This document shows positions 1 to 18,794 of a DNA stretch of 64,000 nt, one piece after another (the stretch's first letter is position 1; every line of letters starts with the position of its first letter). Source of the DNA: Ruegeria sp. HKCCD7303 (GTDB lineage: Bacteria; Pseudomonadota; Alphaproteobacteria; Rhodobacterales; Rhodobacteraceae); assembly GCF_013111185.1 (NCBI RefSeq), contig NZ_WVRE01000001.1:310001-374000 (forward strand). Direction: 5' to 3'. The position numbers and the translations under genes were made by a program. A model generated the notes under the pieces. It saw only the letters and a list, made by a program, of their open reading frames with translations. It searched no databases and was not told the origin of the DNA.

Positions 1-179
1 TCTCCGGATGGGACAATGCGACCGTCTACGCGTGTCACATCGTCAAGCTCGGTTAAGTGTGCCCAAACAATGGCAGATACCAGGCAGGACAGGATCACCA
101 ACAACAGCAGTGAACCGCGAATAGGGGAGCGCCCTTGCATTTCGCGTGCCAGCGCAGCCAGATCAGGATGCTGCGACAT
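1..179 (-). CDS. HlyD-family membrane fusion protein of a type I exporter, N-terminal part only
   Basis: The reading frame starts with ATG at 179 and runs off the left edge, so only about 59 residues are seen. They read MSQHPDLAALAREMQGRS, then a hydrophobic stretch (GSLLLLVILSCLVSAIVWA), then LTELDDVTRVDGRIVPSG. A short cytoplasmic head, one membrane anchor and an E-x-D-x-V-x-x-x-G-R-I-x-P-S-G start of the periplasmic barrel are the standard beginning of HlyD/LapC adaptor proteins. These link the inner-membrane ABC exporter to the TolC channel. The start overlaps the end of the ABC gene by 17 bases, so it is the next gene of the same operon. The substrate is probably the adhesin encoded at the head of the operon. 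The class is clear; the rest of the protein is outside the window. Confidence 0.85.
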   Translation of the reverse strand, partial: MSQHPDLAALAREMQGRSPIRGSLLLLVILSCLVSAIVWAHLTELDDVTRVDGRIVPSG

Positions 180-2310
180 TCAGGTGTCTCCTGCTTTGAC
201 GCGCGTGTTGTGTCAACAGGCTCTTGGGCCCATCTGCCGCGATTTCACCGTCTTCAAGTATGATGACCCGATCAACCAGCTCCAGCAGGCTGGTCCGGTG
301 TGTCACAATCACCATAGTGGTTTCGGCAGCGGTCTTCTTCAAACGTTGGATCACCTGAGCTTCGGTTTGAACATCCATTGCACTGGTCGGCTCATCCAGC
401 AATAGGACTGGCGGTTGCCCGATTAGGGCCCGGGCAAGTGCAATGGCTTGCCGCTGCCCGCCAGACAGCCCTTCTCCACGCTCAGCCAATTGAAGATCAT
501 AACCACTTGGATGCTTGGTGACGAAGTCTTCAACTCCAGATGTACGACCAGCTTCGATAAGGTCTTCGTCTTTCGGCCGGATTGCGCCGCTGGTGATGTT
601 GTCCCTGACTGACCCCGAGAAAAGCCAAACGTCTTGTAAAACCGAGCCGATATTGCGGCGCAGGTCTCCAGGATCGATCTGGCGGATGTCCAACCCGTCA
701 AGCGTGACCGATCCGACGCGGGGCGTGTAGAGCCCCAAAAGCAGACGGGCAATTGTGCTCTTCCCGCATCCGATTTGGCCGAGGATTGCAACCTTTTCGC
801 CCGGCTCGATTGAAAAAGAGATTCCCCTAAGTGTGTCGACACTTTGATCCGGGTACGAGAAATGAACGTTATTGAAAGAGATTGACCCTTTGAACGACAG
901 CCGGTTCACCCACGTACAACCTTCTGGTCGTTCGCTTTCGGCCACCATTAGCGTGTTTAGGTTTCGATATGCACTTCGAGCTTGATTCATGCGCGTAAGC
1001 GTTTGTGCCAGTTGACCCAAGGGGGCCAATGCACGACCGGTCAGCATGACAGAGGCTACAAGTGCTCCCATACTGGCCTGACCATCGGTGATTAGAAAAA
1101 CGCCATAGAAAACGACGAACACCTGGGCCGCTTGCTGCGTAAAACCCGTCAAGTTCAGAGCAAACTGCGTGATGGCCCTGCTTTGCGCTCCATGTGCTGA
1201 TTGCCGTTCAATCGCCTGTTCCCACCGGGCGCGCATTCGCTGACCTGCCGCCGTTGTTTTCAGGGTCTCGATGCCAGAGACGGCCTCGACCAGAACAGAT
1301 TGCTTGGACTGCCCGTCAGTAAGGCTTTTTTCAGCTATTCGCGACAAAAAAGGCTGCACAGCCAAACCGGTCAAAAGCACTACTGGAACGGCTAAAGCAG
1401 GTACAATTGCGAGTTGCCCTCCGACCAGGTAGACCACAAAGATAAACAGCCCTATGAACGGCAAGTCTACAACCGCGACAAGCGTCGCAGATGTGAAGAA
1501 CTCACGCAGCGTTTCAAACTCTCGGATGGTGCTTGTCATGGCCCCGGTCGAACCTGTGCGGGACTTCATCTGAATGTTCAGCACCTGATCGAAGATACGC
1601 CTTCCCATCAGCAAATCAGCTTTTTGACCGGCCTTGTCGATAAAGCCCGCTCGGAGAAGTTTTAGAACGAAGTCGAAAAACAGAGCCAGGGCGACGCCTC
1701 CTGTCAGTGCGATCAGCGACTCGGTTGCCTCGTTTGGCAAAACTCGATCATAGACGACCATAATGAAAATCGAGGTTGTTAGGCCCAGTAGGTTTGCCAT
1801 GGCAGCCGCCAGAACGACTTGGATATAGCTCCATCGGCTAGCGGCAAGAGCCGCCCGAAACCAGTGCCCGTCGTAAGAAGTATTTTCTGTAGAAATATCG
1901 TTGCCGTAGTGGCGTCGAAACAAGATAGCGTAACCAGTATAAGTTTCGCGAAAACTATCTTCAGGAACTTCACTGATCCCTTCGCCGATTTCCGGGTCGA
2001 AAATCAGCAACGTGCCGTTGCCTGTGCGACCATGGTAAACAACGGCTTGTTTTCCAGTCAGCAGTAACATCGCCGGAACGAGTCTGCCGTCAAATTCGGA
2101 CAGGCGTCGCTTGCCGTATCCCGCCTGCAGCTTTGCATGCTGAGCCACTGAAATGATATCGCGTATGGTCAATTCCCCACCTGGCCCGGTTTGCGCGGCG
2201 TGAAGAGAGGCTAATGTTATCGGCCGATCGAGGGTACTTGCGATATTAAGCAAGCAAGCCTCATAAGACGACAATTGAGGGATCGAGAATTTTGAATCGG
2301 CTATATTCAT
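163..2310 (-). CDS. Type I secretion ABC permease/ATPase, LapB-like
   Basis: 715 residues, the usual length for LapB/HlyB exporters. Order: residues 1-135 form a C39-peptidase-like domain that seems to lack the catalytic set, as in exporters that bind their substrate without cleaving it. Residues 155-440 are the transmembrane region, and 475-715 the nucleotide-binding domain. That domain has Walker A GQIGCGKST (511-519), signature LSGGQ (615-619), Walker B VLLLDE (635-640) and the switch histidine in VTHRT (671). It uses ATP to push a protein substrate through the inner membrane, working with the HlyD-like and TolC-like neighbours. Its start overlaps the upstream TolC gene by 4 bases (ATGA), showing translational coupling. 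Family assignment is firm; the link to the adhesin is inferred from the operon. Confidence 0.93.
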   Translation of the reverse strand: MNIADSKFSIPQLSSYEACLLNIASTLDRPITLASLHAAQTGPGGELTIRDIISVAQHAKLQAGYGKRRLSEFDGRLVPAMLLLTGKQAVVYHGRTGNGTLLIFDPEIGEGISEVPEDSFRETYTGYAILFRRHYGNDISTENTSYDGHWFRAALAASRWSYIQVVLAAAMANLLGLTTSIFIMVVYDRVLPNEATESLIALTGGVALALFFDFVLKLLRAGFIDKAGQKADLLMGRRIFDQVLNIQMKSRTGSTGAMTSTIREFETLREFFTSATLVAVVDLPFIGLFIFVVYLVGGQLAIVPALAVPVVLLTGLAVQPFLSRIAEKSLTDGQSKQSVLVEAVSGIETLKTTAAGQRMRARWEQAIERQSAHGAQSRAITQFALNLTGFTQQAAQVFVVFYGVFLITDGQASMGALVASVMLTGRALAPLGQLAQTLTRMNQARSAYRNLNTLMVAESERPEGCTWVNRLSFKGSISFNNVHFSYPDQSVDTLRGISFSIEPGEKVAILGQIGCGKSTIARLLLGLYTPRVGSVTLDGLDIRQIDPGDLRRNIGSVLQDVWLFSGSVRDNITSGAIRPKDEDLIEAGRTSGVEDFVTKHPSGYDLQLAERGEGLSGGQRQAIALARALIGQPPVLLLDEPTSAMDVQTEAQVIQRLKKTAAETTMVIVTHRTSLLELVDRVIILEDGEIAADGPKSLLTQHARQSRRHLNVAAS

Positions 2311-3650
2311 TTCAAACTGCCCCAGGTCCCAAGTGAAACCCCAAGCAAATCAAGTATATCGCCGGTCAGACTCAGTGCGGCATAGTTGGTCAGAAAAAAG
2401 CTCTGTTCAGCCAAAATAAGACGTTCCTGTGCATTTACGTAGTCGCGCTGCGCATCAAGGATTTCGATCAGGCTGCGTCGTCCGATAGAAAACTGTGCGC
2501 GTGATGCTGTCACGTTTTCAGCGTTGGCGGTGACTGCTGCCTCAGCAGCGCGTAGTCGATCAGCGCCCGCTTTTTGGTCCGAGCGAATAAAACCCAGTTC
2601 CCGCGTGATTTCGCGAATAAGTTGCTCGCGAACGTATTCTGCCTCTTTCACTTGCGCTTCAGCGGCAGCAATCGATGCCCGACGTTGACCGGTGCTGTCC
2701 AATTCGTAGTTGACCGAGAGGTCAACGCCGAAATTTGCATCCCTGTTGTCATCTTGATTGGCAAATGCCGCCAAGCGAACGTCCGGCCGGCGGCGGGCTT
2801 GTGCCGCGGACCAATCTGCCTTGGCCGCCAAAAGGCTCGCATCTGCTTGGCGAATTTGAGGGCTGGCTAATATGATTTGAGAGTCACTTCTATCCAGGTC
2901 AGGTGCTGACACAGGAGGGCTTAGAGCGCCGGGAGCTGATCCAAATACTTCACGGAACCGTGCTTCAGCGCGATCTGTGCGTGCCTGGGCGTCTGCAAGC
3001 CGTGTTCGCGCATCTGCCATACGCGACTGCGCCGTCAAAACATCTGCATTGGAACCCGCCCCGCTGGCGGTGCGATCCAAGATTTGGCGCACAAGTTGTT
3101 CATGCACCATGACATTTTTCCGCGAAATGTCCTGTATTCTGCGCTGATCAAGGACAACTACATATGTTTCGATCGCAGCCAGAGCGGTCGCCGAGGCTGT
3201 TTGAATCTGATTGCCCCGGCTTTCCAAAACTCGGGCTCGCGCTGCTGCCAAGTCTCCCGCCGCTGCGCCGCCATCATACACCATTTGCGACACCCTCAGA
3301 TAAGGTGAAACATCAGCGATATCGGAATCAACCCTCTCAGAGCGGGCGTTAATCCCTAAGGAAACTTGGGGCAAAAAAGCGCCTTCTGCTGCATCTTGAT
3401 TGGCTATTGCGATGTCCATCCTCGTATCGCTTTGCGCTAAATTTGGGCTGGATTCCACAGCTGATCGCACCCTTTGCCCAAATGCACTTTGGCCAAGTAA
3501 CTTAGAAGGTTTTGCGGCGCCCGCTCCGGCCGTTCCTGTTGAAAACGACATCGATACAGGCGTCAAATCTGGTGGAGAGGTACAGGCGGCAATCAGAGTT
3601 GCGCATAGAACAAGCATAAGAGGTTTTAGTGTTTTACCATAGGGTCGCAT
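2307..3650 (-). CDS. TolC-family outer-membrane channel lipoprotein
   Basis: 447 residues. The first 23 form a lipoprotein signal with lipobox LIAAC, so the mature protein probably starts at a lipidated cysteine. The rest is long amphipathic helix rich in A, R, Q, E and D, with two related halves. Segments such as SQMVYDGGAAAGDLAAARARV and FSIGRRSLIEILDAQRDYVNAQ are the hallmark of the two TolC/OprM repeats. It forms the trimeric outer-membrane duct for type I export. It overlaps both neighbours (17 bases with the SapC gene, 4 bases with the ABC gene), so the operon is tight. Confidence 0.92.
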   Translation of the reverse strand: MRPYGKTLKPLMLVLCATLIAACTSPPDLTPVSMSFSTGTAGAGAAKPSKLLGQSAFGQRVRSAVESSPNLAQSDTRMDIAIANQDAAEGAFLPQVSLGINARSERVDSDIADVSPYLRVSQMVYDGGAAAGDLAAARARVLESRGNQIQTASATALAAIETYVVVLDQRRIQDISRKNVMVHEQLVRQILDRTASGAGSNADVLTAQSRMADARTRLADAQARTDRAEARFREVFGSAPGALSPPVSAPDLDRSDSQIILASPQIRQADASLLAAKADWSAAQARRRPDVRLAAFANQDDNRDANFGVDLSVNYELDSTGQRRASIAAAEAQVKEAEYVREQLIREITRELGFIRSDQKAGADRLRAAEAAVTANAENVTASRAQFSIGRRSLIEILDAQRDYVNAQERLILAEQSFFLTNYAALSLTGDILDLLGVSLGTWGSLK

Positions 3651-4479
3651 ATTGGCCCTCGTGATTGTGATGTTCCAAAGTGCTTTCTGCTTCTTGGGCT
3701 GTCACCAAAGCGTCTAAAAAATCCGGAAGCTTCGAAGCCGGGTGTTCCGCTTTTTTGTCTGTCAATAGAACAGCCTGCTTTTGCGCCTGCGACAGCCACG
3801 TGAAATGGGTCAGCGAAACCTGATGAGCGTGTATCAGGCGAAGCCCTCCGGTTTTGGCAAGCAACGACATGTTGGCTGCATGAGTTTTTTGCAAAGCGCT
3901 CGCGTTGATGCCGAAAAGCCCGTTTGGAAGTGGCATGCCCTGAAAAGAGGAGAGCGGAGCAAAAAGACCCATCTCTGAAAGGACCTTGCACAAATGCAAT
4001 GTGTCCTGCATCGATTTGGAGAGCGCTTGGAAGAATGCCTGAACTTTTGCCAATTCTGGTCCTAGATTGCCCTCCTGATCGAAAAATAGCTCATCTGCCG
4101 GTTCGTTGGTGACAAGGCCCGAGCTTTCGTCGACCAGCAGATCGAAATGCAAAGGGTTGGTTTCATGATTATGTTCAGGCAGTTCATACCGAAACGGGAA
4201 GCAACGCAGACCAGATGGGACATACATGGCAAGCCACTTACCTTGTGTTGACACGAAGGGCGTCGGGCAATTGGCTTCCATTGAAAGCATGGCCACGGGA
4301 TAGTGGCATTGGTCAGATCTTCGAAAAACGATCGGAAAAGAGGCTGCTATTTGGAGGATTTCCGCGTCCACAACGGCACACTCATTTATTTTGCGTGCAA
4401 AATCGAACGAGGAAAATCGCTTCCAGAACTTACCCTTATGCCGTTGCCGGGTGACCGGAATTAGGCTATTCTGCACCAT
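3634..4479 (-). CDS. SapC-family protein within the type I secretion operon
   Basis: 281 residues from the ATG at 4479. I chose this start because GAGGTGA lies just upstream; an upstream in-frame ATG at 4563 would run into the adhesin gene. The sequence (VVDAEILQIAASFPIVF, then MLSMEANCPTPFVSTQGKW, then YVPSGLRCFPF) matches the SapC family, named after Campylobacter S-layer genes. No signal peptide or membrane segment is visible. Members in other bacteria often lie next to type I secretion or S-layer genes, but their molecular role is not settled. Here it sits between adhesin and TolC and overlaps the latter by 17 bases, which suggests a role in export or surface display of the adhesin (inference). 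Confidence 0.8.
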   Translation of the reverse strand: MVQNSLIPVTRQRHKGKFWKRFSSFDFARKINECAVVDAEILQIAASFPIVFRRSDQCHYPVAMLSMEANCPTPFVSTQGKWLAMYVPSGLRCFPFRYELPEHNHETNPLHFDLLVDESSGLVTNEPADELFFDQEGNLGPELAKVQAFFQALSKSMQDTLHLCKVLSEMGLFAPLSSFQGMPLPNGLFGINASALQKTHAANMSLLAKTGGLRLIHAHQVSLTHFTWLSQAQKQAVLLTDKKAEHPASKLPDFLDALVTAQEAESTLEHHNHEGQYATLW

Positions 4480-4525
4480 AATCACCTCATGATTTTTAAA
4501 GTTCTCGCTGCGGCCTGAATGTCGT

Positions 4526-7500
4526 TCAGGCGGAAGCCCCAGTTGGGTCGGTGTGCAAAACATTGTCTGTGTGCAAGTTGCTCAGATCGTTCAGGCCCTG
4601 GAACGAGGCGACGGTTTGAACGCTGGCGTTGTCAGAGGCTACGAAATCGGCCTTAACCAGAACACTGTCCGTCCCGTCGGTGGCCATAACGTATATCTCG
4701 TCCCCTACCACCGCGCCGGAAAAGCTTTCCACTGCGTTCTCTATCGTGTTCAAGTTTAGATCAATCAAAACTGAGTCCAGACCAACAAATCCGGTGTTGG
4801 CACCGATACTGTCGCCAGCTGACAGCAGCTCGAACCCGGTGCCATCGCCACGCAGAGTGCTGGCGTCTAATCCACTGAACATCAATGCATCAGACATTTC
4901 GGCTGCAGGGCCGATCGTAAAGCCAGTTACGGTATCTGAACCGTTGTTAACTGAGTCCGCTTCGAAAACAACGACATCGCGCCCTGAGGCAGAGACATCG
5001 ATCGTATCATCACCGATGCCGCCTTGAACAAAAGTATCGATTCTTGATGCGGTTAGGCTGTCATCGCCGTTAGTCCCGATTTGCAGAATAGACGGCCCGC
5101 CATCAGGTGTTTTTATTGTCAACACTATGGGTTGGTTCGGATCCTGGACCGTCATCGTGAAAGTGACAAGCGGTTGAGACACATCTGAAAAGACAGTCGC
5201 GGCGCCGGCAAAATTTATGATATCTCCGGTTCCAGGGCTGGCCAGAAACAAATCAAACGCGTTGTGCTCCACCGCAGATCCATTATCGAATGTGACCACG
5301 GAAGAGTCGAATTCCAGTTCTGCCGTAATGGCAAGACCGCTTGAGATATCACGATCTGCATCTGCGTAAATCTCAAAGGTAATGGTTGAACCGGTCCGTC
5401 CTGCTTCAGTGATTACATATGCAGCGGGTTCATGGGCCGTGACCTGATCATTAACGGCTAACGGATTAGGTCCCCCAGACACCGTGGCTTGCGCCGAAAA
5501 CAAAAGGTTGTCTCCGGCATTTATGGCTGAGAATTCAGTTGAAGCGATGGCCGATGACCAAGAGCCATCTGCGGCCACCGTAGCAGATCCTACAGCGTTT
5601 CCATTAAGTGTGATGTCTATCGTCTGACCATTTGATAGGCCCACAGATGAGCCGGTGATTGTCAATCCGGACATCTGCGCGTCATTCAACGCCACAGCGT
5701 CGTTTACGCCAATGTCGTCCATGGTCAGGATGGGGCGAAAATCGGTTGAGATTGAGCTGCTTGCCGTCGCCGAGTTGTTTCCCGCAAGGTCATCAACTGT
5801 TGCGGAAACTGTGTATGTTGACCCGTCTGAAAGAGCGCTCAGATCGCTGGAGGGTATGCTAATCGACCAGGCGCCCGAAGAAACAGTGCCTGCATAAGTC
5901 TGCCCCCCAAACGTGACAGAAACTGTTCGCCCGTCTTCAGCTGATGTGGTGCCCGAGACTGTCAGGTCAGCGCCTTGTTCTGTCACATCCAACACTGGTC
6001 CTACGGGAAGAGCGTCAATTGTAATCACTGGAACTGTAAAGTCGGTGGCGAAATTCACGGTGGCGAGATTATTGTTCCCTGCAGTATCCGAAATCGACGC
6101 GTTGATGCTGTATGTCTCAGCATCTTGAAGAGCAGAAAGCTCAGCGCCTGTTGCGGTATATGTCCAGGTCCCGCCTGTAACGGTTGCGGTTCCGCTAACG
6201 TCGGTGGTTCCATCACTACGCGAGATGTTGATGTTCACTATGGTGCCGTCCGGTGCATCGGAAGCTCCTGACACTGTCAGGTCCGTTCCCTGTTCCGCGG
6301 CGTTCATGATGACTCCGTCTGACACGTTTGTGATATCCAAACTGGGGGGTGTGAAATCTGTATCAAAACTGCTGCTGGCCTGTGCTGCCGGGTTTCCAGC
6401 CGCATCTGAGACATCTGCGGTTACAATTACGGTGACTGCATCTGATAAAGCGGTCAAATCTGAGGCCGTTACCGCGACGCTCCATGCTCCGGCGGAAACC
6501 GTGCCCGAATACGATTTCCCGCTCATGTCAACGCTTACAGTCTGCCCGTCTTCAGCCGTAGTTGCACCCGAAATGATAAGGTCAGTTGCCTGCTCAGCCG
6601 CATTCATAACTGCGCCATCTGAAAAGCTGTCGATGCTTAGCGTCGGTGCCGTCAGGTCAGTACCCAGAGACACATCTGCCTGAGGTGCGGGCAAACCGTT
6701 GGCATCAGAGATATCTGCTGTGACCGAAAAACTGCTTCCGTCAGCAAGCGCGACCAAATTGGCGGTGGGTATGGTTACTGACCACGCGCCACTTGTCACT
6801 GTGCCGGTATAAGTTTGCCCGTCCAAGGTGACGGTGACTTGCTGCCCGTCCTCAACGTTCCCGGTCGTGCCGCTGACCGTCAAGTCAGCCCCAGCTTCTG
6901 CTGTATTCAGCACCGCGCCGACAGAAAGAGGAGAAATGAAAACGGACGGGCCCGTAAGATCCACCGGGACGGATACGGCGACCGGAACCGCCTGATTGCC
7001 TGCTGCATCCTCTACGACGACTGTGATCGTCGCGGGGGTGCCAGTGACAAGACCGCCAAGATCGGCGTTAGGGATTGTCGCATTCCAGCTTCCGCCCGAG
7101 GCTACGCCTGTGTAGGGCTGACCATTGAATGTAACGTTGACGGGTTGACCGTCCGCAGCCGTTGTTAAGCCAGTGAGCATCAGATCGCCTGCGACGTCAG
7201 CCAACTCAATCGAGCCACTGGCAACGGGGTCAAGGGTTATAGTCGGCGCTGTGAAATCAGTATCAAAGCTCCCACTGGCTTGCGAGGCAGGGTTGCCCGC
7301 TGCATCCGTTACGTCAGCGGTTAACGAGACAGTTGCGCCATCAGGCAGGGCTGTCAAAGCCGAAGCTGGTACAGTGACACTCCATTGTCCGCCACTTACC
7401 GTTGCAGAATAGGTTTGGCCATTTAGCGAAACGGTTACAACTTGCCCGTCTTCGGCATCTGTTGAACCAAAGACAGTCAGGTCTGTCGCCTGTTCTGCCG

Positions 7501-8371
7501 AGTTCAGCACAGCACCGTCAGAGAGGCCAGTAATCGCCAAAGTTGGAGGGATCGTATCAATGTCAAACCGGACCGTCTGAACCGATAATTCTGTGCCCGC
7601 ATCGTCCAAATGCCGCACTGAAACGGCTGTTACCCCTTGGGGCAGAGCTGCGGCTTCTGCTGCGGTCAGAGAGAGGCTCCAGCTACCGTCAGCATTGGGT
7701 GTCATGGAATTGACGAGCGATCCGACCGTTACTTCCACAGTCGACGTACCTTCGGGTGCGGCAGAATCAGTGCTGACGTTGTTCAAGGCGGCAGTTTGAA
7801 GCTCGGCCAGATTGAGGCTTGTATAGGTCGGTTCAGGTTGGGGCGTATTGTCAACACCTCCAACATCCCCGCTATTTTCAACATCATCGTCACCGCCGCC
7901 GCCACCTGCTGCAGCGGCCGCTCCGGCCAGGCCCAACCCGCCAAGAGCAGCTCCCGTGCCACCGATGCCACCGGTGGCAGTTGCACCGGCCTCAGCCGCA
8001 CTGAATTGAACGATTTCGGCGACAACGTCCTCTGCAATCATGATCGCACCGCTGTCCAGAACCTGAACGTTTTCAGCAGTGACGATCATTGTTCTACCGT
8101 CGGCGAGCTTTAGAAGCACATCGCCGTTTTTCATCAGTTTTGCCGAGCGGACACCTGGGATGGTTTCCGCAAACTGAAAAGCGTAAAGTTCTTCTATGGA
8201 AGCTTGCGACAGGGCGGGCAGCGCCATTACCGTCGACAAAAGACCACCAGCTGCACCACGACCAGCCCAACGACCGAGTTTTCCGTCGATCCATTGGCGA
8301 ATGCTTCGCTTGCGGTCCGTATCCGAGGATTCCGCTGTCGGATGGTTGTTGGACTCGGTTGCTTTGGTCAT
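4526..8371 (-). CDS. Large Ig-repeat adhesin exported by type I secretion, with a cohesin-like module
   Basis: 1281 residues from the ATG at 8371, chosen for the GTGAGGG upstream; an in-frame ATG at 8440 is the alternative. In this numbering, residues 60-145 resemble the BapA/LapF-type prefix domain (NGDVLLKLADGRTMIV). A glycine/alanine linker ending GGGGGDDD follows (130-163). Then come about eight bacterial Ig-like repeats of roughly 100 residues (180-970) with recurring DGQTVSV, GAWSV and DAAGN patterns. Next is a cohesin-like module (about 983-1093), one RTX-like nonapeptide (GGIGDDTID, 1117-1125) and a C-terminal domain expected to carry the export signal. No Sec signal is seen. It probably mediates attachment or biofilm formation. 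It is the first gene of the operon that encodes its exporter. Repeat number and ligand are unknown from sequence alone. Confidence 0.88.
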   Translation of the reverse strand: MTKATESNNHPTAESSDTDRKRSIRQWIDGKLGRWAGRGAAGGLLSTVMALPALSQASIEELYAFQFAETIPGVRSAKLMKNGDVLLKLADGRTMIVTAENVQVLDSGAIMIAEDVVAEIVQFSAAEAGATATGGIGGTGAALGGLGLAGAAAAAGGGGGDDDVENSGDVGGVDNTPQPEPTYTSLNLAELQTAALNNVSTDSAAPEGTSTVEVTVGSLVNSMTPNADGSWSLSLTAAEAAALPQGVTAVSVRHLDDAGTELSVQTVRFDIDTIPPTLAITGLSDGAVLNSAEQATDLTVFGSTDAEDGQVVTVSLNGQTYSATVSGGQWSVTVPASALTALPDGATVSLTADVTDAAGNPASQASGSFDTDFTAPTITLDPVASGSIELADVAGDLMLTGLTTAADGQPVNVTFNGQPYTGVASGGSWNATIPNADLGGLVTGTPATITVVVEDAAGNQAVPVAVSVPVDLTGPSVFISPLSVGAVLNTAEAGADLTVSGTTGNVEDGQQVTVTLDGQTYTGTVTSGAWSVTIPTANLVALADGSSFSVTADISDANGLPAPQADVSLGTDLTAPTLSIDSFSDGAVMNAAEQATDLIISGATTAEDGQTVSVDMSGKSYSGTVSAGAWSVAVTASDLTALSDAVTVIVTADVSDAAGNPAAQASSSFDTDFTPPSLDITNVSDGVIMNAAEQGTDLTVSGASDAPDGTIVNINISRSDGTTDVSGTATVTGGTWTYTATGAELSALQDAETYSINASISDTAGNNNLATVNFATDFTVPVITIDALPVGPVLDVTEQGADLTVSGTTSAEDGRTVSVTFGGQTYAGTVSSGAWSISIPSSDLSALSDGSTYTVSATVDDLAGNNSATASSSISTDFRPILTMDDIGVNDAVALNDAQMSGLTITGSSVGLSNGQTIDITLNGNAVGSATVAADGSWSSAIASTEFSAINAGDNLLFSAQATVSGGPNPLAVNDQVTAHEPAAYVITEAGRTGSTITFEIYADADRDISSGLAITAELEFDSSVVTFDNGSAVEHNAFDLFLASPGTGDIINFAGAATVFSDVSQPLVTFTMTVQDPNQPIVLTIKTPDGGPSILQIGTNGDDSLTASRIDTFVQGGIGDDTIDVSASGRDVVVFEADSVNNGSDTVTGFTIGPAAEMSDALMFSGLDASTLRGDGTGFELLSAGDSIGANTGFVGLDSVLIDLNLNTIENAVESFSGAVVGDEIYVMATDGTDSVLVKADFVASDNASVQTVASFQGLNDLSNLHTDNVLHTDPTGASA
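5093..5425 (-). other. Cohesin-like module inside the adhesin
   Basis: After the Ig-like repeats the pattern changes to STITFEIYADAD, then LAITAELEFDSSVVTF, a variable stretch, GDIINFAGA, and finally QPLVTFTMTVQD. This order (beta strand, Y/F-D-x-S-x-V-x-F strand, G-x-I-x-F-A-G-A strand, P-L-x-T-x-x-x-x-V strand) follows cohesin and related jelly-roll modules. The call rests on pattern resemblance only. A profile search against the cohesin family or a structure prediction would decide it. Confidence 0.55.
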
Positions 8372-8597
8372 CTTGCCCTCACTTTTGGTGTCCACAGATG
8401 TTCGAAGAGGAAAGGACACATTATTTGACGATTTTCTCATCCGTCTTTCCCATCGGTAAATGCTGCGATCGGACCCAAAAAAATTGAGTTAAACTGAAAC
8501 CGAACTTCACGCTTTCACCACATTTCCGCTTTCGTTTCGGTCTGCGTTCTTTGCCAGTCTGTTGCCATTGCCAGGGGTGGCTCAGGAGGTGATGGCT
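8372..8597. promoter_or_regulatory. Divergent promoter region between adhesin operon and RTX/dockerin gene
   Basis: About 226 bases (157 if the adhesin starts at 8440) separate the two divergent starts, so both promoters must lie here. I see no convincing operator. A strong ribosome-binding site (AGGAGG, 8584-8589) serves the plus-strand gene. Shared control of the two surface proteins is plausible but not shown. Confidence 0.5.
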
Positions 8598-10649
8598 ATG
8601 AGGCTTCAATTCGAAAGCGTGGTTGCAACGGGGAGCACGGCGCTCGATTCAGGTATCGGCGATACGGCTTTAAAAACGTTTAACGGGACCACGTATCTCT
8701 ACACTGTCACCGGTCCGGGTGGAGGGGTCGCGGTTTGGCGGTTAATCGACGGCGCGATACCGCAGCTTGTCGATACGGAATACTACAGCGGCTCAATCAC
8801 CTTTCTGGTGGGGCGCAGTGGCACGCCGGTGGATTTTTCGGGAACGAGTCAACTTGTGTTGGACGTGAACACAGCCACTGGGCTGGTTGGATATGACTTG
8901 AACTCGAACGGAACCATCAGAGCGCTTCAGGAAACAGACACGTTGAGCGGCGGAGGCAACATCGGCGCGGTTGTTCAATTTTCCCTCGGTTCATCGGAAC
9001 TTGTCGTGTTATCGCATGGTGATACCAGCCAGATCGGGACGTATCATGTTAGCTCAGATGGGTCGCTCAACCTTGCCGGTCTGATCGCGGGTGAGGCAGA
9101 TTCGATGCAAGCTGTGCGCTCAGGGTCCGGCCAATTCCTTATTGCTAGTGATGCGGTGAACGACAGGATCGCCACATACCAAATTGACGATAGCACCGGA
9201 CTGCTGACCGAAATAGACAATGGTTCCACTTTAGGGACGCTTGGCGTTGCGACACCAACGGCCGTTGAAACGGTCGAGGCGTATGGAAAATCCTGGGTGG
9301 TTGTTGCTGGGTCGGGCAGCAACTCACTGAGCGTTCTTCAGGTGAATCAGGATGGGAGTCTGAAAGCAACGAACCATGTGCTGGATACGCTCGACACCCG
9401 CTTTGAATCAGTTCAGGACCTTGCGGTTGCGGAGGTGAACGGGCGTGTATTTGTAGTTGCCGGAGGTGGCGACGACGGCGTTAGTCTTTTCAATCTGACG
9501 CCTCAGGGCCAGTTGGTTTACCTCGACAGCTTTGCGGACACACTAGCAAGCGGGTTGCAAAATGTAGAATCGCTCAGCGTTGCGCATGTAGGGGAAGATC
9601 TGCAAATTCTCGTTACATCGCAGCAAGAGGCCGGAGTGACGGTTCTCACAGTTCCTGTTGACGAACTGGGGACTATAAGGACGGGCTTTGCCACTGTGAC
9701 CGGGACCGCATCAGATGACATGCTCAGCGGTAGCATTTTGGATACGACTCTGATTGGCGGCGGTGGGGATGACATCTTGATCGCAGGCGCAGGGGCGACA
9801 ACCATGTCGGGCGGTGCCGGGGCAGACATTTTTGTGATGCAATCTGGCAGTGGCGTGACCACAATTTCAGATTTTCAACCAGGCATGGATCGGCTGGACA
9901 TGTTCGATTATCTACTGTTGCGTTCGCCGCAGCAGTTGAACTTTACCAGCACCTCACAGGGTGCTCGGATCGAATATAGGGGCGAAGTGGTGGAGGTGAA
10001 GTCAGCCTTCGGCGGACCATTATCAAGTGCCGAGATTTTTGGTGCTGGATTCGCAGGCCCCGACCACATTCCGGTGGACTTCGGAAATTTCGGTGGTTTG
10101 ACCCCAAACAGTTCTGACGGTCTAGCCGGACTGGTCACAATAGACAGCGAAACGGCAAATCCTGGCCTGACCGATGCAGAGATCAGATTTACCCCTGACG
10201 GAGGTGGCACTGTCTCAACAACGGCTGACGCACAGGGGAATTTCGATCTGGAGTTACCAGATGGCACCTACTCTGGCTCCTTGGACGTGATCAAATACTA
10301 TTCCACGGCCAGCAACGAAATCGATGCCTTGGACGCCTTGCAGGTCCTGCGTATCGCCGTGGGTCTGGATCCGACATGGGGGCCAGCAACAGCTGAGGAT
10401 CTGATTGCAGCCGATGTTAACCAAAACGGTACGGTGAACGCTCTGGATGCGCTTGAAATCCTTCAGGTGGTTGTTGGGCAACCTTCAGCACCCGATCTGC
10501 AATGGGTATTTTTGGATGAAAACTCAGATTTGTCCGGCATCACCAAAGACAACGTCACCTACGACACGGGTACAAACGTCACTGCGGTAGATGGGGTAAT
10601 TGATGTGGATATGACGTCTATTTTGCTGGGCAATCTGGAAGCCGCGTGA
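8598..10649 (+). CDS. Secreted beta-propeller/RTX protein with C-terminal dockerin-like module
   Basis: 683 residues from the ATG at 8598; AGGAGG eight bases upstream decides this start over ATGs at 8562 and 8592. Residues 1-360 show repeated blade-like units (DRIATYQIDDSTGLLTEI, NSLSVLQVNQDGSL, DGVSLFNLTPQGQLVY), as in lactonase-like propellers. Residues 370-430 hold RTX-type calcium turns (GGGGDDILIAGAG, GGAGADIF) and a DFQPGMDRLDM element. Residues about 505-560 look like a carboxypeptidase-regulatory beta sandwich (EIRFTPDGGGTV, DLELPDGTYSG). Residues 573-628 are dockerin-like. No Sec signal is visible, consistent with type I export. It is divergent from the adhesin carrying a cohesin-like module, so the two may bind each other at the cell surface (inference). 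Confidence 0.82.
   Translation: MRLQFESVVATGSTALDSGIGDTALKTFNGTTYLYTVTGPGGGVAVWRLIDGAIPQLVDTEYYSGSITFLVGRSGTPVDFSGTSQLVLDVNTATGLVGYDLNSNGTIRALQETDTLSGGGNIGAVVQFSLGSSELVVLSHGDTSQIGTYHVSSDGSLNLAGLIAGEADSMQAVRSGSGQFLIASDAVNDRIATYQIDDSTGLLTEIDNGSTLGTLGVATPTAVETVEAYGKSWVVVAGSGSNSLSVLQVNQDGSLKATNHVLDTLDTRFESVQDLAVAEVNGRVFVVAGGGDDGVSLFNLTPQGQLVYLDSFADTLASGLQNVESLSVAHVGEDLQILVTSQQEAGVTVLTVPVDELGTIRTGFATVTGTASDDMLSGSILDTTLIGGGGDDILIAGAGATTMSGGAGADIFVMQSGSGVTTISDFQPGMDRLDMFDYLLLRSPQQLNFTSTSQGARIEYRGEVVEVKSAFGGPLSSAEIFGAGFAGPDHIPVDFGNFGGLTPNSSDGLAGLVTIDSETANPGLTDAEIRFTPDGGGTVSTTADAQGNFDLELPDGTYSGSLDVIKYYSTASNEIDALDALQVLRIAVGLDPTWGPATAEDLIAADVNQNGTVNALDALEILQVVVGQPSAPDLQWVFLDENSDLSGITKDNVTYDTGTNVTAVDGVIDVDMTSILLGNLEAA
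10314..10481 (+). other. Dockerin-like module (two F-hand type repeats)
   Basis: Two repeats are visible: NEIDALDALQVLRIAVGLD and ADVNQNGTVNALDALEIL. The second has the full calcium loop D-x-N-x-N-G-x-x-x-A-x-D followed by the L-x-x-L-x helix of type I dockerins. The first keeps the A-L-D-A-L-Q helix but lacks the first half of the calcium loop. They are about 30 residues apart, as in dockerins. Confidence 0.72.
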
Positions 10650-10870: not shown

Positions 10871-12199
10871 TTACTGTTTCTTGGGTAGCGCATCATGAGT
10901 TGCTTGAAGATACGCAAACCCATACCTCTGATCGGGCTCCAGATGCGTTCCTTCCGCCCATTCATTCCAAGCGTTTATGAAAACGATCTTTTCATCAGCG
11001 CTGTATTTCTCTTGCGCCAGAACTTGGTTCCCCAAATGTGCTGTCCAGCGTTTGTAGGCTTCAATCGAGAACCTGCCCATTATGCGCGGTGCGTCTTGAT
11101 TACGAGCTGTATTGTCCCATGAAAGGGTAGAAGACCGGAACAGCTTGTACTCTGGTTCGCTCTTGGCAAGCTCGGCGTCCACTACCGTGTCATAATCTAA
11201 AATGGCACCGGTAAACTCGGGATTGTAAACGCCCATTTTATCTGTGATGTCGGTGCGCTTAACCTGATGCGGGGGAAACTCCATAGCCGCATCAAAGCCT
11301 AAGTCCTCGGGGTTTCCGATGTCAAAGGTCTGCGCCGCGACGAGGTAGAGGTCCCGCTCACCCCAACTTTGCGCCTCTTGCCGCCAGGCTTTTGTTGTTT
11401 CCCGGATGTCTGGAATAATGTTTGCACGATACACAATGAACACGGGCTTTCCGTCTATCCTGATATATCGAGGGTCTTCGATATACTTGCGGATATGTCG
11501 AAGAAGATTCACTGAATCTTCGATCGAGTGGTTCTGCCCAATGAGCACGTCATGTTCGCGCCCATCCCATCGCCGGGTCCAGTTCTCGTTGGCCCAGGTC
11601 AGGCAGAAGGGCATGTCAACGTCAGGGTTGCCCAACATTTGCTCTAACGGGTCTTCCATCAGGGTCTTCCCGGCAAACCAATAATAGTAGTAGGAAAAGC
11701 CGCTGATACCGTATGCTTTTGCTATCCGGGCTTGCTCGACCATGATCTCTGGCACTCGCAAGTCGTAATAGCCCAAATGAATAGGGCAATGTGGCTGGTA
11801 GTGGCCCGGGAAGTTCGGGACCGCCTTGCCGACATTGGTCCATTCCGTGAAACCTTTACCCCACCATTCGTCATTTTCCTTGAATGGATGAAACTGAGGC
11901 AAATAGTGCGCGATTGCCCGCACCGCTAGTTCAGGCTTGGGCTGAGGATCGAATGGAACAAACTCATCGGCCCGACCAATACCTTCAAACCCCTGTCGGC
12001 CCCACTGCTGATTGGGTTTATCTGTTCGTCTTGGGTCTCTTTTCTTCGCCGAATTTCGAAACCGCCGCGCTGTACGTGATGAAAGCGGAGGGCTGAGTTT
12101 TGATGCTGCCGACAGCAGATAGAAAAGCAGGGTATCTTTGATAGGCATGGTTATTCTCGTACTGAAGCGCCTTGAGCCGTCTGTGAATGAGAGCGCCAT
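10871..12199 (-). CDS. WbsX-family glycan-associated protein (GH99-like fold)
   Basis: 442 residues. After a basic N-terminal stretch, the WbsX core starts near residue 95 (AIAHYLPQFHPFKENDEWWG), continues with FTEWTNV, GYYDLR and CLTWANENWTRRWDG, and ends with INAWNEWAEGTHLEPD. These are the conserved blocks of the family named after WbsX in O-antigen clusters. It is annotated as glycosyltransferase-like but resembles the glycoside hydrolase 99 fold. The enzyme activity is not established. A later in-frame ATG (12148) is an equally possible start. A paralogue follows upstream on the same strand, so the pair probably acts on the same surface polysaccharide. Confidence 0.82.
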   Translation of the reverse strand: MALSFTDGSRRFSTRITMPIKDTLLFYLLSAASKLSPPLSSRTARRFRNSAKKRDPRRTDKPNQQWGRQGFEGIGRADEFVPFDPQPKPELAVRAIAHYLPQFHPFKENDEWWGKGFTEWTNVGKAVPNFPGHYQPHCPIHLGYYDLRVPEIMVEQARIAKAYGISGFSYYYYWFAGKTLMEDPLEQMLGNPDVDMPFCLTWANENWTRRWDGREHDVLIGQNHSIEDSVNLLRHIRKYIEDPRYIRIDGKPVFIVYRANIIPDIRETTKAWRQEAQSWGERDLYLVAAQTFDIGNPEDLGFDAAMEFPPHQVKRTDITDKMGVYNPEFTGAILDYDTVVDAELAKSEPEYKLFRSSTLSWDNTARNQDAPRIMGRFSIEAYKRWTAHLGNQVLAQEKYSADEKIVFINAWNEWAEGTHLEPDQRYGFAYLQATHDALPKKQ

Positions 12200-12282: not shown

Positions 12283-13548
12283 TTATTTTGTACGGACCTC
12301 CGCCAACCACTCTTTGAGCAACCGACCGCTGACCGTGTCACGCAAAAGACGAAATGCCCGTTTGGGCAATGATTTATTCGCACCATATGGAAGACGTTTT
12401 GCGGATCCCTTGGTGGATTTGTTGCGGCGTGATTTTTCAGGTATGCCCACATGGGTCCAACACGTCATGTTTGACCCACGAAGCGCGGCCTGAGTAGCCT
12501 CCAAAAACGCATGCCCATATTCACGATCGGGCTCCAGATGACAGCCTTCTGCCCACTCGTTCCACGCGTTTACAAAAACCAAACGTTCCTGATCGGGAAA
12601 GTCCTGAGCCGTTTGGCGCACAGCGCGCGACAGCCAGTATTCATAGTTTTCCGGGGTCCCGTTCATCACAACCATCGCTTTTTCCTTACGTCTGGCTGTA
12701 TTGTCCCAGGACGGGAAAACCGAGCGATAAACATTGTTTTCCGGCCCATACTTGTGACCAAGGTATTGTTCTGCAATTGCCGAGAAGTCGACGCAGAGCC
12801 CTTGGAAATCATCGTGCAAATCCACCTCTACTGAAAAGTTTGGCACGGTGATGCCATGCGGCGGGAACTCTACGCCGGAATCAAACCCGAAAGAGGCATA
12901 GTCCCAATTTCGGTGAGTAAGCGCACATGTCAGATGAATCTTAGGAATTCCCACAGACGCGCAGTATTCACGCCAAACCTGCACGGACTTACGCGCATTA
13001 TTCAGGTGCTGAGGGCAATAAACGATCAGGATCGGAGCGCCGTCTACAGTGATGTAGCGTGGATCACGAAAGTAGGGTTCGATCGATTTGATGAACTTCA
13101 GGTCATCCTCAGGTTGGTATTCCTGCGCGATGAGAATCTCGTTCTCGTATCCGTCCCAACGTCGGGTCCAGTTTTCATTTGCCCAGCACAGGCAGAACGG
13201 CATATCGCTTTCGGGATCCGCCAGCATGTCGTCGACAGGACGTTCAAGAAGGCGTTTACCCGAGAACCAATAGTAGTGATAGCAGAAACCATCAATCCCG
13301 CTGGCTTTGGCCAGTGCGATTTGCTCATGACGCGTTTCACGTACCCGCAGATCATAGTAGCCCAGATCGCTTGGGAAATGCGGTTGGTAGTGCCCGGTAA
13401 AAACTGGTTTCGCCTTCGTTACGTTCGTCCACTCGGTGAAGCCTTTGCCCCACCATTGGTCGTTCTCCGGAATTGGATGAAATTGCGGTAAGTAAAAAGC
13501 AATCGTTCGGATGTTTTCGAATTCACGATCGAAGGTTTTCGTGGCCAT
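12283..13548 (-). CDS. Second WbsX-family glycan-associated protein
   Basis: 421 residues, with the same block order as its neighbour: IAFYLPQFHPIPENDQWWG near residue 16, FTEWTNV, GYYDLRV, CLCWANENWTRRWDG and NAWNEWAEGCHLEPD near the C terminus. It lacks the basic N-terminal extension of the other copy and instead has a basic C-terminal tail of about 55 residues. The start codon overlaps the stop of a small upstream frame (TAATG). The two copies are diverged, so this is an old duplication or a two-enzyme set. Family is clear; substrate and reaction are not. Confidence 0.83.
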   Translation of the reverse strand: MATKTFDREFENIRTIAFYLPQFHPIPENDQWWGKGFTEWTNVTKAKPVFTGHYQPHFPSDLGYYDLRVRETRHEQIALAKASGIDGFCYHYYWFSGKRLLERPVDDMLADPESDMPFCLCWANENWTRRWDGYENEILIAQEYQPEDDLKFIKSIEPYFRDPRYITVDGAPILIVYCPQHLNNARKSVQVWREYCASVGIPKIHLTCALTHRNWDYASFGFDSGVEFPPHGITVPNFSVEVDLHDDFQGLCVDFSAIAEQYLGHKYGPENNVYRSVFPSWDNTARRKEKAMVVMNGTPENYEYWLSRAVRQTAQDFPDQERLVFVNAWNEWAEGCHLEPDREYGHAFLEATQAALRGSNMTCWTHVGIPEKSRRNKSTKGSAKRLPYGANKSLPKRAFRLLRDTVSGRLLKEWLAEVRTK

Positions 13549-15107: not shown

Positions 15108-15974
15108 CTAGTCGAGCAACTTCTTCAGATAGGCCCCATAAGTGGATTTGGCGAAAAGACGCGCGCGTTCTTCAAGGGCTGCATTGTCGATCCAGCCATT
15201 CGCCCAGGCGATTTCGTCGAGGCTCCCGGTTTGCATACCCTGACGTGCTTCGATGGTCCGAACAAAGTTGCCTGCATCCAAAAGGGAGCCATGCGTGCCC
15301 GTATCCAACCATGCAAATCCGCGCCCCATGGTCTGCACATCCAGTAGTCCTTCCTGTAGGTACATCTCGAGAAGCGATGTGATTTCCAGTTCGCCACGCT
15401 CTGACGGCTGAACTTCATGAGCGCGGGCCGGAGCATCTCCATCAAGAAAATAAAGCCCTGTCACCGCATAGCTCGATGGGGGAACTTCGGGTTTCTCGAT
15501 GATCGCGCGTGCCTTGGTGCCTTCAAAATCCACCACTCCATAGCGTTCGGGATCGGCCACACGATAGGCAAAAACAGTCCCTCCCCGCTTCTGGGCATCC
15601 GCTTCCAACAGCAACCTTGGCAGTCCGTGACCAAAGAAAATATTGTCCCCCAAAATCAGGGCGGATGGGGCGCCAGCCAGAAAGTCCTCGGCCAGGGTAT
15701 ATGCTTGTGCCAGACCGTCAGGGGAAGGCTGGACAATCCACGTGATCGACAGCCCGTACTGACTGCCATCTCCCAACATACGTTGGAACTGTTCCTGATC
15801 CTGAGGTGTTGTGATGATGGCAATCTCGCGGATTTGCGCCAACATCAGAACGCTCAGCGGATAGAAGATCATCGGCTTGTCATAGATCGGCAGCAACTGT
15901 TTGGAAACCGCCATGGTGATCGGATAAAGCCGGGTGCCGGACCCTCCGGCAAGAATAATGCCTTTACGTTGCAT
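15108..15974 (-). CDS. rfbA: Glucose-1-phosphate thymidylyltransferase
   Basis: 288 residues, full length. It joins dTTP and glucose-1-phosphate to give dTDP-glucose, the first step of dTDP-L-rhamnose synthesis. Visible motifs: the N-terminal GGSGTRLYPIT nucleotidyl loop with KQLLPIYDKPMI, LILGDNIFFGHG (metal-binding Asp), EKPEVPPSSYAVTGLYFLD and FAWLDTGTHGSLLDA. It is the last gene of rfbCBDA and follows rfbD after 18 bases. Also called rmlA. Confidence 0.95.
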   Translation of the reverse strand: MQRKGIILAGGSGTRLYPITMAVSKQLLPIYDKPMIFYPLSVLMLAQIREIAIITTPQDQEQFQRMLGDGSQYGLSITWIVQPSPDGLAQAYTLAEDFLAGAPSALILGDNIFFGHGLPRLLLEADAQKRGGTVFAYRVADPERYGVVDFEGTKARAIIEKPEVPPSSYAVTGLYFLDGDAPARAHEVQPSERGELEITSLLEMYLQEGLLDVQTMGRGFAWLDTGTHGSLLDAGNFVRTIEARQGMQTGSLDEIAWANGWIDNAALEERARLFAKSTYGAYLKKLLD

Positions 15975-15992
15975 GCTCTGTCCTTTCAGGGG

Positions 15993-16856
15993 TCAGCCAG
16001 TTGCTGAATTCAACTCGCGCAAAACGTCACTCAGACCAGTTTTCCAGTCCGGTCTGGGAATTCCAAACACGGTGTTCAGGCGATCGCAGTTCAGGCGCGA
16101 ATTCAGTGGTCTTGGGGCCGGGGTAGGGTAGTCCGTCGAAGGGATGTCATCGATCTGAGTTGTCAGGCCGGACTGCACAGTGATTTCGCGTGCGAAGTCC
16201 GCCCAGCTGGTATCCGGAGTGCCGGAAAAATGAAATAGCCCGCCTTCAGTGCCTGCTTTGCTTTTCGCCATAATAAGAAGAGCATCGGCAATGTCAGCTG
16301 CGGGTGTTGGTCCGCCGATCTGGTCGGCAACAATTGTCAATCTGTCGCGGGTTTCGGCAAGTCTGAGAATGGTTTTGACAAAATTATTCCCATGGGCCGA
16401 AAACACCCAACTGGTTCGCAGAATGGCGTGCCATCCTCCCGCTTGAGCGATCTGGCGTTCTCCGTCCAACTTGGTTTTGCCGTAAGCGCCTAAAGGTGCT
16501 GTCGAGTGATCGGGTGTCCAAGGGGTTGTGCCCGATCCGTCGAATACGTAATCCGTTGAGATATGCAGAAAGGGCAGGCTCCGTGCCGTGGCTGCGCGCG
16601 CCATTGCTCCGGGCGAGTCTGCGTTAATAAGTTGCGCAAGATCGAGGTCTTCTTCGGCCTTATCCACTGCTGTGTATGCCGCCGCATTGATAATGACGTC
16701 GGCATCAGTGCCTTGGATAGCGTCCGCACATTGCGAAGGGTTCGACAAGTCCGCTTCGGTGCGATCCAGCGCTTCAACCTCTATACCATGGCCATTCGCG
16801 CGGCGGCGCAGTTCGGTTGCCACTTGGCCACTATGGCCGAATATCAGCGCCTTCAT
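15993..16856 (-). CDS. rfbD: dTDP-4-dehydrorhamnose reductase
   Basis: 287 residues, an extended short-chain dehydrogenase. The N terminus has the nucleotide-binding [10 protein letters not shown], followed by [18 protein letters not shown], the catalytic Ser/Tyr/Lys region ([10 protein letters not shown] and YGKTKLDGE) and LRTSWVFS. It reduces dTDP-4-keto-L-rhamnose to dTDP-L-rhamnose, the last step of the pathway. The start overlaps the end of rfbB by 4 bases. Also called rmlD. Confidence 0.95.
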
Positions 16857-17893
16857 TTGCCAGTCCCCAAGCGTTCTCCTACACCGCTGCGTGCTTGCAA
16901 AGCGTTCAGCCAGTCTGTGTTGTCAAGATACCACTGCACGGTTTGCTCAAGCCCGGTTTCAGGGGTGTATGACGGACGCCAGTTCAGTTCCTCGCGGATA
17001 CGGGCTGGGTCGATGGCATAACGGCGATCGTGACCCGGACGATCCGTAACAAACGTGATCAGATCGCTGTAGGGCGCAGAGCCCGGTTTCAGCCGATCCA
17101 GTATTTTGCACAGCATCCTGACGAGGTCGAGATTGGTCATCTCATTCTCGCCACCAATATTGTAGCTGCGGCCAAGTTTGCCTTTTTCCAGCACCAACAA
17201 CAGCGCTTCGGCATGATCCTCAACATGCAGCCAGTCGCGAATGTTGTCACCTTTTCCATAAATCGGGATCGGCTGCCCGGACAGGGCGTTCAGGATCACC
17301 ACGGGGATCAGCTTTTCCGGGAATTGGTAGGGCCCGTAATTGTTAGAGCAATTCGTCAAAACAACAGGCAGGCCATAGGTTTCCCGCCAGGCGCGTACAA
17401 GGTGATCCGACCCCGCTTTTGACGCGGAGTAGGGCGAATTTGGTTGATATGGGCTGTCTTCGGTGAAAAAGCCGGTCGCGCCCAGAGACCCAAAGACCTC
17501 ATCCGTTGAAATATGGTGAAACCTGAAACTTTCCGGGCGGCCTGCGTTTTGCCAATAGGCGCGGGCAGCTTCCAGCAAGACGTAAGTGCCGGTAATATTC
17601 GTGTCGATAAAGGCAGCTGGCCCATCAATTGAGCGATCCACATGGCTTTCTGCAGCGAGATGCATGATTGTATCGGGCTGGTGCTTGTCCAGAATAGCGG
17701 ACATCGCCGCGGCATCGCGGATATCTGCATGTTCAAAAGCATAAGTCAGTGATTGGGCGACCGAAGCAACATTATCCAGGCAGGCAGCATAGGTCAGCGC
17801 ATCAACATTTACGACGGAATGTCCGTCTGCAATTGCGCGTCGAATAACAGCAGAGCCAATAAACCCAGCCCCACCAGTGACAAGAATTTTCAT
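16853..17893 (-). CDS. rfbB: dTDP-glucose 4,6-dehydratase
   Basis: 346 residues. Rossmann motif [10 protein letters not shown] at the N terminus, [28 protein letters not shown] (the Thr-Asp-Glu active-site triad of this dehydratase), and the [15 protein letters not shown] catalytic Tyr/Lys helix. It converts dTDP-glucose to dTDP-4-keto-6-deoxyglucose with tightly bound NAD. Overlaps of 4 bases at both ends couple it to rfbC and rfbD. Also called rmlB. Confidence 0.96.
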
Positions 17894-18459
17894 TGAGCAG
17901 CCTCAAATACAAAAGGGGAATCCAATTCACAAAGACGAGGCGCAACCTTGTCTTTCTCGGAAAGCTGGGGGGCTGAGTTACTGCTGGGCCAGCCAATTCC
18001 GATTTCAGGATCATCCCAAAGGACAGAACCTTCTGTCTCCGGTGCATAGGTGTCTGAACACTTGTAGACGATCTCGGTATCCGGCTCCAAGGTCACGAAG
18101 CCATGTGCAAAACCTGCGGGGACCAACAGCATCCGCCCATTTTCAAAGCTCAACTCTTCTCCGACCCACTGGCCAAACGTTGGTGACCCTTTGCGAATGT
18201 CCACCGCCACATCGAAAAGTTTGCCGCGCCCGCAACGCACCAGTTTCGCCTGTGCACGGGGGGGGGCCTGAAAATGCAACCCACGCACCGTGTTCACCGC
18301 GCTTGAGAGCGAGTGATTGTCCTGAACAAACTGGGTGGTAATCCCGGCAGCGGCAAAGCTGTCTGCATTATAGGTTTCTTCGAAGAACCCGCGATGATCG
18401 CCAAAACGTCTCGGGGTAATCAACTTCACGTCCGGAATGGAAAGCGCGACTATTTCCAT
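17890..18459 (-). CDS. rfbC: dTDP-4-dehydrorhamnose 3,5-epimerase
   Basis: 189 residues from the ATG at 18459; the open frame extends a further 80 codons upstream but that part is not protein-like. Cupin-fold motifs: [34 protein letters not shown] (catalytic His), [22 protein letters not shown] and [10 protein letters not shown] (active-site Tyr). It epimerises the 4-keto sugar at C3 and C5. It is the first gene of the operon, so the promoter should lie in 18460-18794. Also called rmlC. Confidence 0.94.
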
Positions 18460-18794
18460 CGTTACTAATTTCTTCTCTTTATGCGGTCTTTTCGTCTCAG
18501 AAGCTATGTCACATGTGGTCTGGTTTCGCCACATCCCATGTTCAAAAATAGGCAATTTTTGGCTGCAGGCCTTGGTTCCGGCGTTTTTTTCGCCGCTCAA
18601 GTTGCTGCTGCTGTTTGCTATATTTAATGGAAAGCAAAAACTCGGTCGTGGGGTTGGCAGTGTTCGGAATTGCGCCGACGACTTAGGCAGAGACTTCACG
18701 CAGACCTAGGATCTCGTGCCTCCTGAAGAACCAAACAAACGGGAAGAAATTGCTGAGCATTTAGTGACTGAGCAATTTCAAGTACAGCGGCCAA
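18460..18794. other. Intergenic stretch upstream of the rfb operon
   Basis: 335 bases between the rfbC start and the end of the protease gene, both on the minus strand. It should contain the rfb promoter. It is more T-rich on the plus strand than its surroundings. The frame at 18437-18709 is not protein-like and I do not count it. Confidence 0.5.

Follow-up and report, generated by a model that had tools for sequence, protein, structure and literature searches.

The window analysed here, a stretch of 64,000 nucleotides from Ruegeria sp. HKCCD7303, carries the gene for an RTX adhesin and, divergent from it, a gene for a propeller/RTX protein with a dockerin near its C-terminus. We propose that a cohesin-like module near the tip of the adhesin docks the dockerin of the separately secreted propeller/RTX protein, and we put the probability that the two form a working pair at roughly 0.78. 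The dockerin is recognised by a family profile and the cohesin by its predicted fold, and the two modules occur together, have been lost together and covary in sequence within the genus, next to a type I secretion operon. The cohesin-dockerin joint is familiar chiefly from cellulosomes, which digest cellulose. The parts of the two proteins on which the argument turns are the following (aa, amino acids; Ig, immunoglobulin).

4526..8371, minus strand: RTX adhesin, 1281 aa counted from base 8371 (reading frame open to 8440), from Pfam and profile scans and homologues
5456..7573, minus strand: Ig-like extender repeats of the adhesin, residues about 290-995 (NF033510, NF012196, Big_13)
5078..5425, minus strand: cohesin-like module, adhesin residues 1006-1121, from the predicted fold, without a profile match
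4529..5077, minus strand: C-terminal RTX-like region of the adhesin, with columns common to other Rhodobacteraceae proteins and a fold that matches RTX lipases
8598..10649, plus strand: propeller-RTX-X-dockerin protein, 683 aa (683-695 aa), divergent from the adhesin
8598..9671, plus strand: beta-propeller (Lactonase, 7-bladed, by Pfam), from Pfam and Foldseek
9684..10061, plus strand: RTX calcium-binding region, below the cut-off in Pfam and found by another family scan
10119..10301, plus strand: X-like Ig or carboxypeptidase-regulatory-like module, from the alignment, preceding the dockerin
10302..10478, plus strand: type I dockerin, from PF00404 and the alignment
10479..10649, plus strand: conserved tail W-V-F-L-D ... 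I-L-L-G-N, common to most of the aligned dockerin proteins

The sequence-only reading of this DNA had seen a dockerin-like end on the divergent RTX protein, and the family scans agree: PF00404 scores 30.4 bits against a cut-off of 22.9 (33.8 bits in the scan of the whole genome), and a 23-sequence profile of the dockerin block matches solved cellulosomal dockerins with a best E of 4.9e-5. It is the one dockerin protein above the PF00404 cut-off in its genome, two weak matches (16-17 bits) being left uncounted. Both dockerin helices are present. Of the two calcium loops, only the second is canonical; loop 1 is degenerate, with ligands missing at positions 1, 3 and 5 across the genus, and is more canonical in several sequences from Rhabdonatronobacter sediminivivens IM2376 (G037), where several of the related X modules match PF13620 below its cut-off. 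By analogy with other dockerins, as treated in part of PMC5429695, a degenerate first loop would suit a single binding mode. When the whole protein was submitted to Foldseek, the match list was filled by propellers. No anchor domain was named for the dockerin protein in these scans, and it is therefore probably released.

On the adhesin side, the same reading had noted a cohesin-like strand pattern in the C-terminal part, and the predicted structure of this module is indeed the cohesin jelly roll, with Clostridium perfringens 2jh2 and 2vo8 and Archaeoglobus 2xdh among the closest folds when the model was compared with known structures. The Ruegeria adhesin model holds a single such module.

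The co-occurrence of the two modules expected in related genomes was found within the genus. The adhesin C-terminus was matched in 41 of 54 genomes (in G268 as a fragment only) and the dockerin block in 50, and of the 40 genomes with an open-frame adhesin C-terminus, 39 have a full-length dockerin protein. G285 keeps the adhesin C-terminus with the dockerin protein split over two frames, and G278 carries the two genes on separate contigs. In the other 14 genomes the dockerin protein is absent from four (G269, G273, G276, G284), broken in nine and intact in one (G043). Deletion remnants stand at the same place in nine genomes (G249, G252, G255, G260, G274, G280, G286, G294 and G268; L073-L080, L082): what is left of the dockerin gene is its 3' part, whose first residue is different every time (209 to 550); of the adhesin at most a fragment survives, and most of the operon is lost, with HlyD or a piece of it left in seven of the nine. 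This repeated loss of the unit is compatible with a joint function, and joint deletion of neighbouring genes could explain it too. As an observation in its own right, the adhesin/dockerin locus is a place of recurrent loss within the genus. Second, unlinked dockerin proteins occur in G250, G251, G267 and G277 (L084, L085, L086 and L087), three of them propeller-RTX paralogues; in these genomes, which have one cohesin adhesin, they could be competing clients.

We analysed covariation with domain distance matrices from 39 genomes with both complete genes on a single contig, 38 from the genus plus G073, using permutations that ignore the tree, which makes the p-values indicative. The other domains of both proteins intercorrelate at 0.36-0.78, as expected from shared descent, and the cohesin correlates weakly with them (0.08-0.30). 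Its correlation with the dockerin is 0.51 and with the tail 0.45; that of the dockerin with the adjoining X module is 0.09. With seven other domains controlled, the partial correlation of cohesin and dockerin is 0.44 (p 0.001, the minimum), falling to 0.21 (p 0.018) without the four most divergent genomes; that of the adhesin C-terminus and the dockerin is 0.06. The modules were then partitioned, a partition chosen after the whole-domain correlations had been seen, with strands numbered by their order in the model and the inside and outside of sheets guessed from hydrophobicity. Sheet 8-3-6-5 corresponds to the known dockerin interface (PMC5429695). For the full set, the set without the four and the set without the nine most divergent genomes, this predicted binding sheet correlates with dockerin helix 3 at 0.63, 0.49 and 0.42, and the other cohesin sheet at 0.32, 0.18 and 0.15; columns matched for variability from elsewhere in the cohesin give means of 0.42, 0.13 and 0.15 and maxima of 0.64, 0.34 and 0.45. 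The binding sheet is near zero with dockerin helix 1 and with the linker, and it covaries with helix 3, not with the X module.

Beyond the genus, the family sample comprised 248 genomes from 247 genera of Rhodobacteraceae; the searches scored at most 9 (adhesin profile), 14 (dockerin block, family) or 11 (dockerin block, class) candidates per genome, and absence from them is no proof. A single adhesin sequence as query covers the cohesin part in three genera (Ruegeria, G073 and G037), and all three fall among the four with PF00404 dockerins (those three and G224; p 1.6e-6). Profile searches find the full-length cohesin adhesin in four genera and the dockerin block in seven, with an overlap of four, a tally less independent than the single-sequence one, having been made with profiles that include G037 and G236 sequences. 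G236 itself matched by RTX columns only in the single-sequence search and is counted in the profile tally alone, its divergent cohesin-like segment having been found later. A further 31 genomes match the adhesin profile from column 66 onward only, and the dockerin block occurs in 8 of the 248 genomes. Five other genomes matched in the single-sequence search (G056, G113, G086, G052 and G038) were left uncounted as cohesin carriers, their adhesin match lying in RTX columns only and without a dockerin. Two dockerin genes of G233 lie beside relatives of HlyD (62%), the ABC exporter (66%) and TolC (52%), where the contig ends. In G224, three dockerin genes lie near a contig end, and one of them (12128-14335 of L173, minus strand) encodes an M10-type metalloprotease with the X-dockerin-tail block at its end. 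A search of 318 genomes of the class with the dockerin block returned only the Ruegeria genome. Genomes of Rhodobacteraceae type are thus the only ones in which the system was seen, leaving aside L263, a contig assigned to a Verrucomicrobia metagenome-assembled genome (MAG), which carries a Rhodobacteraceae-type dockerin block and is probably misbinned.

The same operon is present in R. sediminivivens IM2376, with an adhesin of 1012 aa in which one cohesin was found (profile A3), and here the dockerin proteins multiply. Spread over 12 contigs are 19 dockerin matches, one per protein, and of the 18 of these proteins that were scanned, 11 exceed the cut-off of the Pfam dockerin model and the other seven fall short of it (18.1-22.1 bits). 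Besides a relative of the propeller/RTX protein (L160), they include six proteins in a run (573-759 aa, most of them with RTX repeats) and others with M23 peptidase, VWD, CAP, RCC1, cadherin or Ig domains. No glycoside hydrolase is among the Pfam matches of the Ruegeria client or of these 18, cellulose-binding modules and cellulases elsewhere not having been searched for. The docking proposed in the sequence-only reading is supported, by the cohesin-like fold and the co-occurrence among others, and with 19 dockerin proteins in this genome the system looks wider than the two-part surface assembly described there. This arrangement looks like a cellulosome-like display system built on type I secretion.

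Among named genomes, the best 80 of 97 relatives of this dockerin type came from 77 loci, which belong to 30 assemblies, several of them named as haloalkaliphiles. Seventeen of the 29 assemblies from outside Rhabdonatronobacter match the adhesin C-terminus at E <= 1.1e-37, and ten of these strong matches (11 in a second analysis) span the cohesin columns. A profile of the cohesin only is clear in nine of the 29, including near-copies of known sequences in two (G632 and G637), and is positive at none of 31 RTX-only control loci (best control E 0.25); it was built from 10 rows and 8 of 11 loci, which match partly by construction, as the 31 controls do not.

A number of results weigh against the pairing. 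PF00963 has no match in the adhesin, its genome, the G037 adhesin or seven other homologues, and neither phmmer against the PDB nor a 19-sequence profile of the adhesin module retrieved any PDB cohesin; as no Pfam or PDB profile finds the cohesin, its identity is supported only by the predicted fold, and a type I cohesin is not supported at the level of sequence. The module looks like a cohesin family that Pfam misses. In G043 the dockerin protein is intact beside an adhesin that ends before the cohesin, and no cohesin was detected in the dockerin genera G041, G224 and G233. Among the 29 named assemblies, 12, mostly MAGs and including Roseinatronobacter sp. HJB301, have no clear adhesin, and six (G620, G622, G626, G628, G629, G631) match it by RTX columns only; in these six the cohesin-only profile is clear in G629 (E 2.3e-11), marginal in G622 (0.029) and G631 (0.19) and finds nothing in the rest. 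Covariation of the whole modules depends mostly on a handful of divergent genomes (partial r 0.15, p 0.053, once nine are removed), and the cohesin also correlates with the RTX region (partial 0.23). Across the three sets, the binding sheet covaries with the tail (0.40, 0.33, 0.25) and with loop 1 (0.33, 0.32, 0.20) as well, the cohesin loops covary with helix 3 (0.52, 0.25, 0.07), and the value for sheet and helix 3 clearly exceeds the matched columns only without the four genomes (0.49 against a maximum of 0.34), lying at their edge in the full set and without nine. A conserved-interface test failed: residues that point outward vary more on the binding sheet than on the other one (entropy 1.56 vs 1.05), which is consistent with a specificity interface that changes along with its partner.

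In the mechanism that we envisage, the adhesin would leave the cell through its own type I system and fold in the external calcium into a calcium-stiffened fibre, its N-terminus staying at the cell and its Ig repeats extending the fibre. LapA-like adhesins are held at the cell by their N-terminus, and RTX adhesins usually carry a ligand-binding domain near the distal C-terminal end, which is where the cohesin is predicted to sit. The propeller/RTX protein, once secreted and folded in the calcium of sea water, would dock mainly by helix 3 of the second dockerin repeat onto the 8-3-6-5 sheet, presumably in a calcium-dependent manner, and its propeller may serve as an exchangeable adhesive or enzymatic head on the adhesin tip, with a putative target of its own. 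In some relatives one cohesin would serve many dockerin-tagged proteins, one client per adhesin molecule at a time. It had been suggested that one type I system exports both proteins, a claim that lost ground when a second type I ABC and HlyD pair was found 3' of the dockerin gene in several relatives (L073-L077, L080, L082, L083); this pair is 25-31% identical to that of the window (the ABC protein aligned without its C39-like N-terminus), and in the window itself two WbsX genes take its place.

Were the modules not to bind each other, the jelly roll would bind an outside ligand, like the tips of other RTX adhesins, the dockerin would be used otherwise and the genes would be mere neighbours. 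We consider this unlikely, as unlinked dockerin proteins occur in G037, G250, G251, G267 and G277, all of which have the cohesin adhesin, although four of four within the genus is weak alone, since 40 of its 54 genomes carry the adhesin. The cohesin, moreover, covaries not with the nearer domains but with the dockerin, which the divergent gene encodes at its distant end. More improbable still is that type I substrates use the X-dockerin-tail block as a cap for folding or secretion and not for docking. The aligned proteins do have the block at the C-terminus, the location of type I signals, and its tail is well conserved, but the cohesin adhesin, a probable type I substrate, has no such block, which is found in just 8 of the 248 family genomes.

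A more serious alternative, which we regard as conceivable at something like one chance in a few, is that docking takes place between cells too, or instead, with released dockerin proteins caught by the adhesins of kin as a shared or bridging device in biofilms. The lack of a named anchor domain in the family scans and the probable release of the dockerin protein would fit this, a variable, covarying interface would suit kin recognition, and cohesin and dockerin proteins have been suggested to act between partners in consortia of anaerobic methanotrophic (ANME) archaea (parts of PMC10553843 and PMC9012536). Docking on the producing cell is simpler, and docking between cells would in any case be a variant of the working pair and compatible with it.

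The adhesin gene (1281-1304 aa) is followed on the minus strand by a SapC-family gene, a TolC-like channel, an ATP-binding cassette (ABC) exporter of the LssB type and an HlyD-like gene, which together make up a type I secretion operon.

3634..4563, minus strand: SapC family protein (PF07277, 4.5e-36)
2307..3650, minus strand: TolC-like outer membrane channel (OEP 1.5e-40; TIGR01844 160 bits, under its cut-off of 225)
163..2310, minus strand: LssB-type ABC exporter with a C39-like N-terminal domain (TIGR03375 828.9 bits, cut-off 693.1)
1..179, minus strand: 5' part of an HlyD-like gene that runs on past the left edge of the window (436 aa, L090:5370-6680), assigned from its position and by eye, without a family scan

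The SapC-family reading frame shares 38 bases with the 3' end of the adhesin gene, and its true start may be later. The adhesin consists of a Gly/Ala-rich N-terminal region, Ig-like repeats with eight stretches matched by Ca_tandemer, the cohesin-like module and an RTX-type C-terminus, which probably holds the type I secretion signal. The marks of an RTX adhesin are thus present: tandem calcium-stabilised Ig repeats, a C-terminal RTX region and an ABC-HlyD-TolC operon (HlyD by place and by eye). Named homologues of both the adhesin and the dockerin protein are mostly from Ruegeria. Adjoining the dockerin gene are two tandem WbsX glycosyltransferase-like genes (10871-12199 and 12283-13548, minus strand), and the genes beyond them, at 15108-18699, resemble a dTDP-rhamnose set when judged by eye, making this a surface polysaccharide region. 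An M10-type metalloprotease of 976 aa with RTX and four tryptophan-rich (W_rich_C) stretches (18795-21725, minus strand) is likely another type I substrate.

Set beside known systems, this one resembles the clostridial and ruminococcal cellulosomes (types I and III) in its dockerin family, cohesin fold and predicted use of the 8-3-6-5 face with helix 3, and G037 in having one cohesin for many dockerin-tagged proteins. It differs in that no cellulase was found among the scanned clients, that PF00963 misses the cohesin, and that secretion is of type I, from a Gram-negative RTX adhesin; in the G037 and Ruegeria adhesins one cohesin each was found and not the string of a scaffoldin. Noncellulosomal cohesins and dockerins are known and are abundant in ANME archaea and their partners (PMC5244752, PMC9012536, PMC10553843), and a review described their function outside cellulosomes as not known (PMC5244752). 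Like those of Archaeoglobus, C. perfringens and the ANME archaea with their sulfate-reducing partners, the modules described here would be docking modules outside cellulosomes; cargo, anchoring and, presumably, export differ, and here the two genes form a fixed divergent pair that lies with a type I operon. The Ig extenders, C-terminal RTX region and ABC-HlyD-TolC operon are shared with LapA-like and ice-binding RTX adhesins as covered in part of PMC7493085, but where those have a distal domain that binds an outside ligand, the module here would be a cohesin that takes up a partner made by the bacterium itself. Saccharophagus degradans is likewise a marine Gram-negative bacterium with dockerin-like and cohesin-like reading frames, for which the relevant part of PMC2386152 assigns no pair and no link to type I secretion. 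In the sections of the open-licence literature that were available, we found no description of a type I secreted RTX adhesin that bears a cohesin close to its tip and has a fixed dockerin partner, of a set of dockerin-tagged clients in a relative, or of such a cohesin-dockerin pair in Rhodobacteraceae.

The wider proposal, to which we give somewhat better than even odds, is that Rhodobacteraceae hold a Gram-negative counterpart of the cellulosome on type I secretion, in which an RTX adhesin, by means of a cohesin of a new family at its tip, captures an entire dockerin-tagged secretome (in Rhabdonatronobacter, 19 proteins) through a strain-specific, co-evolving interface and displays exchangeable surface heads. 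With candidate partners, anchor, exporter and clients together in one much-sequenced genus, a noncellulosomal function of cohesins and dockerins becomes directly testable. If the pairing is true, RTX adhesins can bear detachable tips, and the two modules may offer a new docking pair for surface display.

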